Origin: Candidatus Peregrinibacteria bacterium
GTDB lineage: Bacteria > Patescibacteriota > Gracilibacteria > UBA1369 > UM-FILTER-53-11
Length of the DNA: 64,000 bases
Reading direction: 5' to 3'
Assembly (NCBI GenBank): GCA_016186205.1
Contig: JACPMA010000003.1
Location: 62,001-126,000, forward strand
A program made the position numbers and the translations under genes. The notes under the pieces are model-generated. The model searched no databases and had not been told where the DNA came from. It saw nothing but the letters and a program-made list of their open reading frames with translations. Within the stretch, counting starts at the first letter, position 1. Every line of letters begins with the position of its first letter. Positions 42,343 through 45,049 of this stretch are shown piece after piece.

Positions 42343-44643
42343 CTATTCAAATTCAATAATCTTTTCTTTTTGAACAGTCTTTATGTTCTCATCGGATACA
42401 TTTGAAACACGCACAGCATAAAAAAGAGCGGTATGTTTGGTCATTGTCGATTTTGGCTTACATGAACCGTCTTTCAAAGGACGCATGATATTATAAGCAC
42501 GCATCGTCGCCATAACTTGCGCATATTCCGACTTATTCGATACATCGCTGCAGATATTTTTCGGGAGTTGAGTTTTTTGCAAAAGAGGAATTTCCTTTGC
42601 TTTGAGCAACATTTGGAAATAGTCGGCGCGTTGAATTTTTATTGCAGGCGGTTTCTTCGTATTTATGAAACCATTTTCCGCCGCGGCCGCCAGACATGTT
42701 TTCACGCTAACAGTTTTTCCGCAATCTTTTCCGCCAAGCATAAGAGCTATCTGTGCTGCAAAAAAGCGTTTTGCTATGCTGCCGGGGCTTAAACGTTGAT
42801 TTTTCGGTAGTTTATAAACTTCTTTATCAAGCATAGATTGTATCAATGCAAGAATTTGTTTAGTTATCGCACTTTCGAGAAATTTTTTATTGCTGCCTGG
42901 AAAATCGAGAAATAAATCGGATGATTTTTCTTCAGCTGCAGGCTTTACAGCAGGAGTTGTCGGGCTTGGCGTACTGATAAAACCGCCTCCGCCTCCGCCA
43001 CCGCCACCGCCTCCGCTTGGACTACTTGGTGGCGGCGACTCAACTGGAGGAGGTGCCGGCGCGTGATCATTATCAGTTATAGTAACGGCAACATCCGCTA
43101 TCGCGATATTGTTGTAATTTGAATTAGTGCTCGATCCGACATGAGTGGATGTGCCATTATGCGTACTTTCAATAGCACTATCATCTATTGCTGTTACGGT
43201 AATGGTTTGCGGCGCATTCCATAAAGCGTCCGTGAACGTAAGCGATACAGGAGATACGGAAATCTGCGTATCCCCGCTTGTAGTAATAATGACATCTGCA
43301 GTTGGCTGGCTTGTAAGCACAACAGAATATGTGTCTGTCGCGCCGCCTTCAGTAACAACTGTACTTCCATCAGTTTGAGTGACAGTAACGCCGGCAGTAT
43401 CGTTATCGGTGATACTGACGGTAACGCTTGAAACCGTTAAACCGTTGAAATTCGCATCAGCGCTCGATGTTATATATGAAATGGTTCCGCCATGAGCGCC
43501 CTCTACTATCGAATCATTCACAGCGGATACGGTTACTGTTTGCGGAGTATTCCAATTTGCGGATGTAAACGTGACATCCAGCGGCGTTGCTGAAATTTGG
43601 CTCGTGGTTGTGCCGGAAATCGTAACATCAGCCGTCGGTTGGCTTGTTAATACAATGGTGTAAGTATCTGTCGCGCCGCCTTCTGTAGCAGTCGTGCCAC
43701 CATCTGTTTGAGTAACAGTCACGCCGGCGGTGTCATTATCCGTAATCGAAACCGAGAGATTATTTACCGCGATGCCGTTGTAATTACTATCAGTGCTTGT
43801 AACGGTATGCGTCAACGTGCCGGTATGCGCGCCTTCGATAAGAGCATCATTCACCGCATAAATCCACACACTCTGCTGTGTACTCCAGTTTGATGAAGTA
43901 AAAGTTAACGAAGTTTTGTTTGTTGTTAATTGAGTTCCTCCGCTGATATTTACAGTCACATTCGCCGATGGAGGACTGTTGAGTGAAATATAATATGTGT
44001 CCGGCGATCCTGATTCTGATACTGCTGTTGACCCACTAGTTTCCGCTAGATTAACGCCAGGCGGATTTGTAATCGCCATTGTTGCACCGCCGGAATCAAT
44101 AATAGACATGCTTGGTAGTGGTGTATTTGTTTCTATATTCAGAGAGCCCGTTCCTGTTGAAGAAGGATTTACAACTTGTTTATCGCCGGTTTGGGCATAA
44201 GTTGCGTTTGTTCCGATGCGGATTTCAATTGATGCGCCGGCTGAAATGCCGACAGTAGTATTTACATTAATTTGCAATTTATAACTTGAAATAAATATGC
44301 CGTCATTCGTAGACGAAGCGCTGGCGCCAAGGTTGCGCTGTGCGCCGTCAACTATTAAATCAACATCGGTATAGTCAAGGCCGGATTGAAATGCATATCC
44401 GTCGGAAAAATAAATTATGACGAATCCATTTGCCGGAACGGCATTAATGACAGCAAAAGTAAATGTGTGATTCGTTGCAGTGCTTTTGACGCCGGATAAA
44501 GGAGTGTGCGTAATGCTTAATGAAGAAGCTTGCACTTTATTGTTAAAAACAATGAGGCCGATTGCGACAAAAATCGCTGTTGCAAATAGCAAAATCGCCG
44601 TATGCCATGAAAAATGCGTCTTTAATGTTGCTTTTGTAGGCAT
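42343..44643 (-). CDS. Secreted protein with Calx-beta-like repeats
   Basis: 766 residues from the ATG at 44643, which follows a consensus promoter by 6 nt. Signal/anchor: AILLFATAIFVAIGLIVFNN. After an N-terminal beta domain (about 40-190) come at least three copies of a repeat of about 110 residues marked by SITDNDTAGVTVTQTDG, TEGGATDTY and NGTxxHxxxSxxSNYN, similar to Calx-beta-type adhesion repeats. A Pro/Gly linker (SPPPSSPSGGGGGGGGGGGF) leads to a helical C-terminal domain of about 200 residues with four Cys. Probably a surface protein. Confidence 0.85.
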   Translation of the reverse strand: MPTKATLKTHFSWHTAILLFATAIFVAIGLIVFNNKVQASSLSITHTPLSGVKSTATNHTFTFAVINAVPANGFVIIYFSDGYAFQSGLDYTDVDLIVDGAQRNLGASASSTNDGIFISSYKLQINVNTTVGISAGASIEIRIGTNATYAQTGDKQVVNPSSTGTGSLNIETNTPLPSMSIIDSGGATMAITNPPGVNLAETSGSTAVSESGSPDTYYISLNSPPSANVTVNISGGTQLTTNKTSLTFTSSNWSTQQSVWIYAVNDALIEGAHTGTLTHTVTSTDSNYNGIAVNNLSVSITDNDTAGVTVTQTDGGTTATEGGATDTYTIVLTSQPTADVTISGTTTSQISATPLDVTFTSANWNTPQTVTVSAVNDSIVEGAHGGTISYITSSADANFNGLTVSSVTVSITDNDTAGVTVTQTDGSTVVTEGGATDTYSVVLTSQPTADVIITTSGDTQISVSPVSLTFTDALWNAPQTITVTAIDDSAIESTHNGTSTHVGSSTNSNYNNIAIADVAVTITDNDHAPAPPPVESPPPSSPSGGGGGGGGGGGFISTPSPTTPAVKPAAEEKSSDLFLDFPGSNKKFLESAITKQILALIQSMLDKEVYKLPKNQRLSPGSIAKRFFAAQIALMLGGKDCGKTVSVKTCLAAAAENGFINTKKPPAIKIQRADYFQMLLKAKEIPLLQKTQLPKNICSDVSNKSEYAQVMATMRAYNIMRPLKDGSCKPKSTMTKHTALFYAVRVSNVSDENIKTVQKEKIIEFE

Positions 44644-44649
44644 TATATT

Positions 44650-44678
44650 ATTATACGATAAGAGATCGTATATGTCAA
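44650..44678 (-). promoter_or_regulatory. Perfect consensus promoter, leaderless gene
   Basis: Minus strand TTGACA (44673-44678), 17 bp, TATAAT (44650-44655). The ATG lies 6 nt after the -10, so transcription starts at the start codon. Confidence 0.85.
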
Positions 44679-44747
44679 TCAAGCAAGATTTAACGGGGCT
44701 CAACGAGCTTAGTACAACCGTGAATTTTTTCTACAATTTCAGCAAAG

Positions 44748-44835
44748 CTTTTTTGTTTGATAGAAGCGCAAAATCCGCTACAGCGGATTTTGCGTTGTAA
44801 TAAAAAGTTTAGAAAAATTTCATGAAGATGTGATA
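44748..44835 (+). repeat. 88-bp promoter-bearing repeat, copy C
   Basis: The hairpin is CGCAAAATCCGC-TACA-GCGGATTTTGCG (12-bp stem). The tail has AGTTTA, 17 bp and TGTGAT (44829-44834), then a tRNA-like structure 25 nt on. The region 44704-45049 has no protein gene. Confidence 0.82.
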
Positions 44836-44859
44836 GAGCTATTCGCGCCAGAAGAGTAT

Positions 44860-44931
44860 GGGGCGAATTCTGGCGAATATCGGCGGATCTGACATTCGCC
44901 GATGGGGGTTCGATTCCCCCTCGCTCCACCA
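44860..44931 (+). ncRNA. tRNA-like small RNA with compact D arm
   Basis: All 72 nt fit a cloverleaf. Acceptor stem: GGGGCGA with TCGCTCC, one G-U, then ACCA. Small D-like hairpin: ATTC-TGGC-GAAT. Extended anticodon-like arm: ATCGGCGGA-TCTGACA-TTCGCCGAT (9 bp, 7-nt loop, C instead of U at position 33). T arm: GGGGG-TTCGATT-CCCCC. There is no variable loop and no joining nucleotides. Flanks GCCAGAAG (44847-44854) and CTTCTGGC (44932-44939) can also pair. The 5' GGGGCGAATTCTGG and the T arm recall tmRNA ends. It lies between a repeat-borne promoter and a terminator, so it is probably transcribed. Not a normal tRNA. Confidence 0.55.
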
Positions 44932-44950
44932 CTTCTGGCATATTAAAAAG

Positions 44951-44975
44951 AAAAAAGCCCTTGCGGGCCTTTTTC
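44951..44975. terminator. Terminator of the tRNA-like RNA gene
   Basis: AAAAAAGCCC-TTGC-GGGCCTTTTT. A short GC stem with flanking A and T runs can work in both directions. Confidence 0.8.
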
Positions 44976-45003
44976 TGAATTCTGGATACCGGCGGATCTG
45001 ACT
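44976..45003 (+). repeat. Partial second copy of the tRNA-like 5' half
   Basis: GAATTCTGG-ATACCGGCGGATCTGAC repeats 44865-44892 (GAATTCTGG-CGAATATCGGCGGATCTGAC) with a 3-base gap and one change. The 3' half is absent. It lies after the terminator and before the recJ -10 box (TATAAT, 45008-45013). Confidence 0.65.
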
Positions 45004-45049
45004 CTTGTATAATACCAAAGTCGAGACTTAAAATCTATAGCATTTACTG

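Follow-up and report, generated by a model that had tools for sequence, protein, structure and literature searches.

The DNA analysed here, referred to as the window, is a stretch of 64,000 nucleotides from a Candidatus Peregrinibacteria bacterium (contig JACPMA010000003.1). It holds a predicted gene for a compact tRNA-like RNA, RNA1, and downstream of it, on the opposite strand, the predicted gene for a short antisense RNA, RNA2 (Table 1).

The core of RNA1 reads GGGGCGA ATTCTGGCGAAT ATCGGCGGA TCTGACA TTCGCCGAT GGGGG TTCGATT CCCCC TCGCTCC ACCA, with a 7 bp acceptor stem that carries the alanine identity elements G3·U70 and A73 and leads into the ACCA end. A preliminary description, made from the letters of the DNA alone, had drawn a four-arm cloverleaf with this end, a T arm, a 12 nt D-like hairpin and a 9 bp arm, enclosed by an 8 bp flanking stem. 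The two flanks do pair, and with them the RNA folds at −50.7 kcal/mol (z = −5.4), a value equalled by none of 200 shuffled sequences. The description was also right that this is neither a normal tRNA nor a tmRNA: ARAGORN makes no call, no Rfam family matches at its gathering score, and the best tmRNA match reaches 13.9 bits, in the T arm. Canonical tRNA (RF00005) has a 7 nt loop with U33 and a purine at position 37, a 5 bp anticodon stem and a 4 bp D stem, a set that RNA1 of the window does not match; its loop has C33 and C37, its arm has 9 bp, and the loop triplet has no clear decoding. The tRNA-like domain of tmRNA (RF00023) shares with RNA1 the G3·U70/A73 alanine identity, a minimal D region, the T arm and the ends GGGGC...GCTCCACCA. 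RNA1 nevertheless differs from tmRNA in having no mRNA-like domain, tag frame or pseudoknots and in closing its arm with a hairpin loop, and the genome has a separate tmRNA.

A candidate promoter had previously been placed in a repeat at 44756–44805 (‘repeat C’), but this is an inverted repeat, GCAAAATCCGCTACAGCGGATTTTGC, lying just upstream of RNA1 and present in the same form at the C5 and C17 paralogues; it is probably the terminator of neighbouring genes or a piece of a duplicated segment. Comparison with the paralogues makes the extended −10 TGATAGAGC the more likely RNA1 promoter. TGnTA occurs upstream of 67 of 112 RNA1 genes, against 39 expected from shuffles, usually 18–20 nt before the core. 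The terminator said to frame the gene on its other side is present as a terminator-like hairpin.

The preliminary description had missed a 17 nt direct repeat and, with it, a dedicated complementary partner RNA. The two copies (44877–44893 and 44986–45002) are identical at 16 of 17 positions and correspond to the 5′ strand of the 9 bp arm plus the loop; the likeness runs on through the D hairpin, as GAATTCTGG at 44977–44985. Since the complement of the repeat is preceded on the minus strand by an extended −10, TGGTATTAT, the downstream copy is predicted to be the template of RNA2. The predicted transcript is ∼54 nt long, has its complementarity to RNA1 in its first 26 nt and ends at the shared hairpin.

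Table 1. Features of the RNA1–RNA2 locus, in window coordinates.
Feature	Position	Strand	Basis or remark
RNA1, predicted gene	~44845–44940	+	tRNA-like cloverleaf
RNA1 core, cloverleaf GGGGCGA...TCGCTCC ACCA with G3·U70 and A73	44860–44931	+	covariance model R1, 82.8 bits
Outer stem, 5′ strand, GCCAGAAG	44847–44854	+	similar pairing stems around most relatives
Outer stem, 3′ strand, CTTCTGGC	44932–44939	+	8 bp with 44847–44854
D-like hairpin, 12 nt, ATTC-TGGC-GAAT, with GG for elbow	44867–44878	+	GG in 109/112 members
9 bp ‘anticodon’ arm, loop TCTGACA (44888–44894)	44879–44903	+	9/9 pairs compensated in 102 sequences
T arm, normal, GGGGG-TTCGATT-CCCCC	44904–44920	+	covariation alignment
Candidate extended −10 of RNA1, TGATAGAGC	44831–44839	+	inferred from paralogues
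RNA2, predicted short antisense RNA, 5′ end ~45002	44949–45002	−	direct repeat; −10 box and spacing
RNA2 part complementary to RNA1 D hairpin, 5′ arm strand and loop	44977–45002	−	duplex −40.0 kcal/mol
Extended −10 box of RNA2, TGGTATTAT	45009–45017	−	~7 nt before 45002
Terminator-like hairpin, bidirectional, common to RNA1 and RNA2	44949–44976		hairpin past RNA1

On the minus strand, a mechanical open reading frame, MPEVVERGGIEPPSANVRSADI..., crosses RNA1 in antisense (44690–44941); where genomes are annotated with such ‘hypothetical proteins’, these may be members of the RNA family that have gone unrecognised. A 786-aa protein with repeated segments and a Gly-rich linker, without a single Pfam match, is encoded on the same strand (42343–44703), between miaA and the RNA pair.

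Relatives and covariation of RNA1

A search of relatives with the window DNA returned, in the same genome, one full paralogue (84% identical), one divergent copy and one truncated copy, and other genera gave matches too. From a hand-seeded alignment of 11 sequences we built a covariance model, R1, and ran it over the order, class and phylum. Covariation in the seed alignment was 0.600, against 0.204 when shuffled, and G3·U70 was present in 11 of 11. The alignment of 102 R1 hits, which includes a few sequences with a canonical D arm or ordinary tRNAs, gave 0.790 against 0.197 shuffled, with 94.1% of cells paired. The preliminary description had named covariation in the 9 bp arm, under a covariance model of homologues, as a check on the gene, and all nine pairs of that arm show compensating double changes.

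At 112 loci the pair G3·U70 is universal, a uniformity partly conditioned by the model, whose seed sequences all carried it; A73 is likewise found in all 112, and CCA is encoded in 86. A further 23 loci across the phylum have G3·U70 in 22 cases. Loops of the relatives mostly follow N-U-Y-G-W-C-A. The lack of U33 reported earlier holds for the window copy, but most relatives have U33. Most members carry C at position 37 instead of a purine, and mismatches at the top of the arm are frequent.

Many Patescibacteria have members of the family, among them Peribacteria/Peregrinibacteria, Uhrbacteria and Magasanikbacteria, and 3–7 copies per genome are common. The prevalence in the phylum is a lower bound, as R1 at E ≤ 1e-9 is strict and ill-suited to the ABY1 form, and its E-values are rough. 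The genome of the window has five (C1:106860, C5:46477, C17:40081, C1:6601 and C14:87189) and one remnant; some relatives carry six or seven, scattered around the genome. The strong covariation and Patescibacteria-wide distribution bear out two of the earlier suggestions, a tRNA mimic and a new RNA family, and these comparisons support the view that RNA1 is a real tRNA-like RNA gene.

Several variants stand apart. The remnant (L009:2500–2720, G000:C5:44571–44642) has lost the 5′ half of RNA1 and kept the T arm, CCA end, terminator and RNA2 repeat; it looks like an inactivated RNA1 with RNA2 retained. At L265 the acceptor is GCCGGCA/TGCCGGC with U73, lacking G3·U70 and A73, and a tandem complementary RNA2 is still there; perhaps this member has a different synthetase identity. 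Four sequences from Acidimicrobiia/Acidimicrobiales (L163, L191, L224 and L145) are tRNA-like, have ends of the G3·U70 type and carry the loop TTGACA. ARAGORN made no call on them where tested, and a search for a complementary partner detected none; they are possible distant analogues. Hits to a loop plus T-arm pattern in Armatimonadetes, Acidobacteria and others were mostly tmRNA 3′ ends. Plasmid and phage records yielded T-arm matches only, or nothing, and hence no plasmid or verified-phage link, and none of five pattern hits among viral contigs was member-like.

The members in Uhrbacteria, Magasanikbacteria and kin (ABY1-type) have a canonical D arm, and ARAGORN calls them tRNA-Ser(UGA) or tRNA-Thr(UGU); L148, L155, L161, L202, L221, L225 and L240 bear such labels. 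In one Uhrbacteria genome (G660), the member is an extra 76 nt class-I ‘tRNA-Ser(UGA)’ with alanine identity, additional to a complete tRNA set with a normal 88 nt tRNA-Ser(UGA) and three tRNA-Ala. By sequence, these members are of dual identity, in that the synthetase identity given by G3·U70 differs from the UGA or UGU anticodon.

Complementarity between RNA1 and RNA2 across loci

Pairing was assessed at 112 loci by comparing the D/anticodon-arm sequence of each member with its own 300 nt flanks, the flanks of other members serving as the null. Complementarity to the own flank exceeded the 99th null percentile at 89 loci, of which 62 have the partner convergent and downstream, 15 divergent and upstream, and 12 in tandem downstream on the same strand. 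A −10-like box, T-A---T, lies just upstream of the pairing start at 61 of the 62 convergent loci (24.9 expected), at all 15 divergent loci (7.8 expected) and at all 12 tandem loci (3.8 expected). The gap from box to pairing start has a median of 5–6 nt in all three arrangements, so that RNA2 would begin with the anti-loop sequence. Since the complementarity persists where RNA2 is not opposite RNA1, neither overlapping DNA nor an insertion repeat can account for it. Among the ABY1-type members, where RNA2 is upstream on the same strand and has two distinct segments, one per side of the anticodon arm, 16 of 23 loci exceed the same percentile. Outside the class, most loci inspected were tandem, with TTGACA/TATAAT-like promoters.

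Cognate duplexes average −34.0 kcal/mol and non-cognate duplexes within the same genome −17.4 kcal/mol, the cognate partner being the strongest in 41 of 43 cases; the RNA2 segments used for these energies were picked by match, and the mismatched-flank null is the fair test of the existence of the pairing. The window genome and G004 hold the element at the same place by recJ, with arms that differ and are each matched by their own RNA2. Together, these comparisons strongly support the RNA1–RNA2 pair and its complementarity, which co-evolves in four geometries. The idea that RNA2 is a mere copy of the recJ leader was rejected, as the same relation is found at unrelated loci.

At about ten loci (L010, L037, L040, L043, L046, L087, L107, L113, L125 and L129), RNA2 instead covers the acceptor 5′ strand and/or the 3′ end ...GCTCCACCA, sometimes plus the loop. 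Coverage of either the arm or the charging end is as expected if the purpose of RNA2 is to stop RNA1 from acting as a tRNA, and the loci with a covered acceptor or CCA end point to charging as the step to be blocked.

We looked for a conserved protein partner around the 112 loci and found none that is general, the neighbouring genes being inconsistent. The two candidates, a Cys-rich zinc-ribbon family (adjoining 11 loci) and recJ (5 loci), were both rejected on these counts. Multi-copy Cys-rich proteins of ∼550 aa ending in ...YCEKCYLESVY (L009:873–2534, L009:2740–4392 and L010:1274–2458) have weak, below cut-off treble-clef matches to PF13451 and PF23477; they are convergent to several RNA pairs, and the putative RNA2 −35 falls inside their last codons. 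In G004, miaA comes immediately before the RNA pair and recJ. Among the loci inspected, none showed a CRISPR component. We dropped the idea that the repeat is the DNA target of an RNA-guided enzyme, because it also occurs reverse-complemented in tandem or upstream positions, always by a −10 box, and with no shared protein.

Possible function of the RNA pair

We favour, at a probability of roughly 55%, a two-RNA module whose RNA1, a tRNA mimic capable of alanylation, would harm translation when freed and would be kept silent by RNA2, the whole forming an all-RNA addiction module. We infer the transcription of the two RNAs, the charging, inhibition and toxicity of RNA1, and the mechanism as follows. 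RNA1 would be a stable, compact tRNA mimic in which AlaRS identity (G3·U70, A73, ACCA) and a tRNA elbow are joined to a 9 bp arm whose loop is not that of an alanine tRNA. Because AlaRS is present in the window's genome, and relies on G3·U70 and ignores the anticodon (PMC11415595), RNA1 would be charged with alanine. RNA2 would be short, mostly unstructured, short-lived and more strongly transcribed than RNA1. Its 5′ end would dock on the RNA1 loop and go on to open the arm and the D hairpin; at a minority of loci the target would be the acceptor stem with the CCA end. Bound in this way, RNA1 would be unable to act as a tRNA. Should RNA2 be lost, through a transcription stop, loss of the locus or phage attack, RNA1 would be released and, charged with alanine, would disturb translation: it might bring alanine to Ser/Thr-type codons or tie up AlaRS, EF-Tu or the ribosome.

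The many scattered, orthogonal and fast-changing copies, the lack of a shared neighbour and the L009 remnant suit an addiction module more than a housekeeping function. C37 and the frayed top of the arm speak against efficient decoding by RNA1, L265, without G3·U70, argues against the toxin reading, and RNA1 could equally be a benign regulator. The wider proposal, that the pairs form a phylum-wide and hitherto undescribed class of all-RNA toxin–antitoxins, in which an alanine-charged mimic with a Ser/Thr-type loop causes programmed mistranslation or ribosome poisoning unless bound by its co-evolving antisense ‘anti-tRNA’, we advance tentatively, at somewhat under even odds.

RNA1 might instead be a useful dual-identity alanine tRNA dosed by RNA2, allowing conditional Ser/Thr-to-Ala misincorporation or another tRNA service, such as supplying alanine to cell-wall enzymes. 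Its alanine identity agrees with this, as do the near-canonical ABY1-type tRNAs (UGA/UGU) found beyond a full tRNA set and the natural dual-identity tRNAs known in Streptomyces (PMC11415595, PMC10365949). We nevertheless think it unlikely, as multi-copy, scattered, fast-changing and mutually orthogonal pairs are more addiction-like, and C37 and the variable loops also tell against it. Equally doubtful is a regulatory pair without toxicity, in which RNA2 would be the sponge of RNA1, a tRNA-shaped sRNA that might, for example, act as a decoy of RNase P, AlaRS or EF-Tu or regulate the gene next to it. The architecture would suit any antisense-controlled sRNA, and the recJ-locus copies are kept in two genera; however, the neighbouring gene is inconsistent, and the strict G3·U70 and A73 and the mostly encoded CCA exceed what a structural decoy needs. 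Far less credible than either is a decayed tmRNA, a tRNA pseudogene or the att site of an integrated element: the 5′ GGGGCGAATTCTGG and the 3′ half do resemble tmRNA ends, and a direct repeat flanks the gene, but the closed arm covaries strongly, tandem and divergent geometries occur elsewhere, and what is repeated, at a distance of only 109 nt, is the 5′ strand of the arm rather than the 3′ half that tRNA-gene integration duplicates. The covariation, together with a repeat that co-evolves, refutes the decayed tmRNA or att site offered in the preliminary description; the full-length tmRNA for which it suggested searching is present and intact (G000:C16:13977–14401), but the 3′ end of that gene is not copied here, only ∼31 nt around the T arm being shared.

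On our addiction-module reading, the pair would by analogy work most like a type VIII all-RNA toxin–antitoxin and the dual-identity tRNA-ProX. CreTA, described as the first of type VIII (PMC9458426), likewise has small RNAs as both partners, a toxin that acts on tRNA function (as is proposed for RNA1) and specificity for the linked partner; it differs in that CreA acts through Cascade on the creT promoter and CreT is not tRNA-shaped, whereas RNA2 would pair directly with the tRNA mimic. Here the sequence shows complementarity and promoter placement for two linked small RNA genes, of which RNA2 may neutralise RNA1. The tRNA-ProX species of Streptomyces (PMC10365949, PMC11415595) are natural extra tRNAs that join one synthetase identity to another anticodon, and they are reported to be toxic when expressed in E. 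coli (PMC10365949). They have proline identity, a dedicated ProRSx gene and no described antisense RNA, whereas RNA1 has alanine identity, a compact fold and a linked antisense RNA. The pseudo-tRNA tRNA-Other of Bacillus cereus (PMC3399842) is also a chromosomal tRNA-like gene that stands outside normal translation and affects physiology; the part of that source drawn on here describes neither an antisense partner nor alanine identity. RNA1 does not resemble a peptide-coding type I toxin: its bases covary in helices, and no reading frame was seen to be conserved. In type I pairs such as hok/sok, a stable structured RNA is held by a small, short-lived antisense RNA whose gene overlaps it or lies close by, and there are multi-copy orthogonal pairs. 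These systems encode a toxic peptide, whereas RNA1 itself would be the effector.

A non-exhaustive literature search for tRNA-like RNAs in Patescibacteria found no paper, although one may exist elsewhere, and so far as the literature searched and Rfam show, a tRNA-like gene paired with its own antisense RNA has not been described. The mislabelling of members as tRNA-Ser or tRNA-Thr could bias counts of tRNAs and searches for altered genetic codes. The module, if it is real, would account for odd extra tRNA-Ser/Thr annotations and offer a compact, programmable off-switch for a tRNA. If RNA1 is charged and harmful, the pair would make up an addiction or defence module of RNA alone, acting by tRNA mimicry across one of the largest and least understood bacterial groups.
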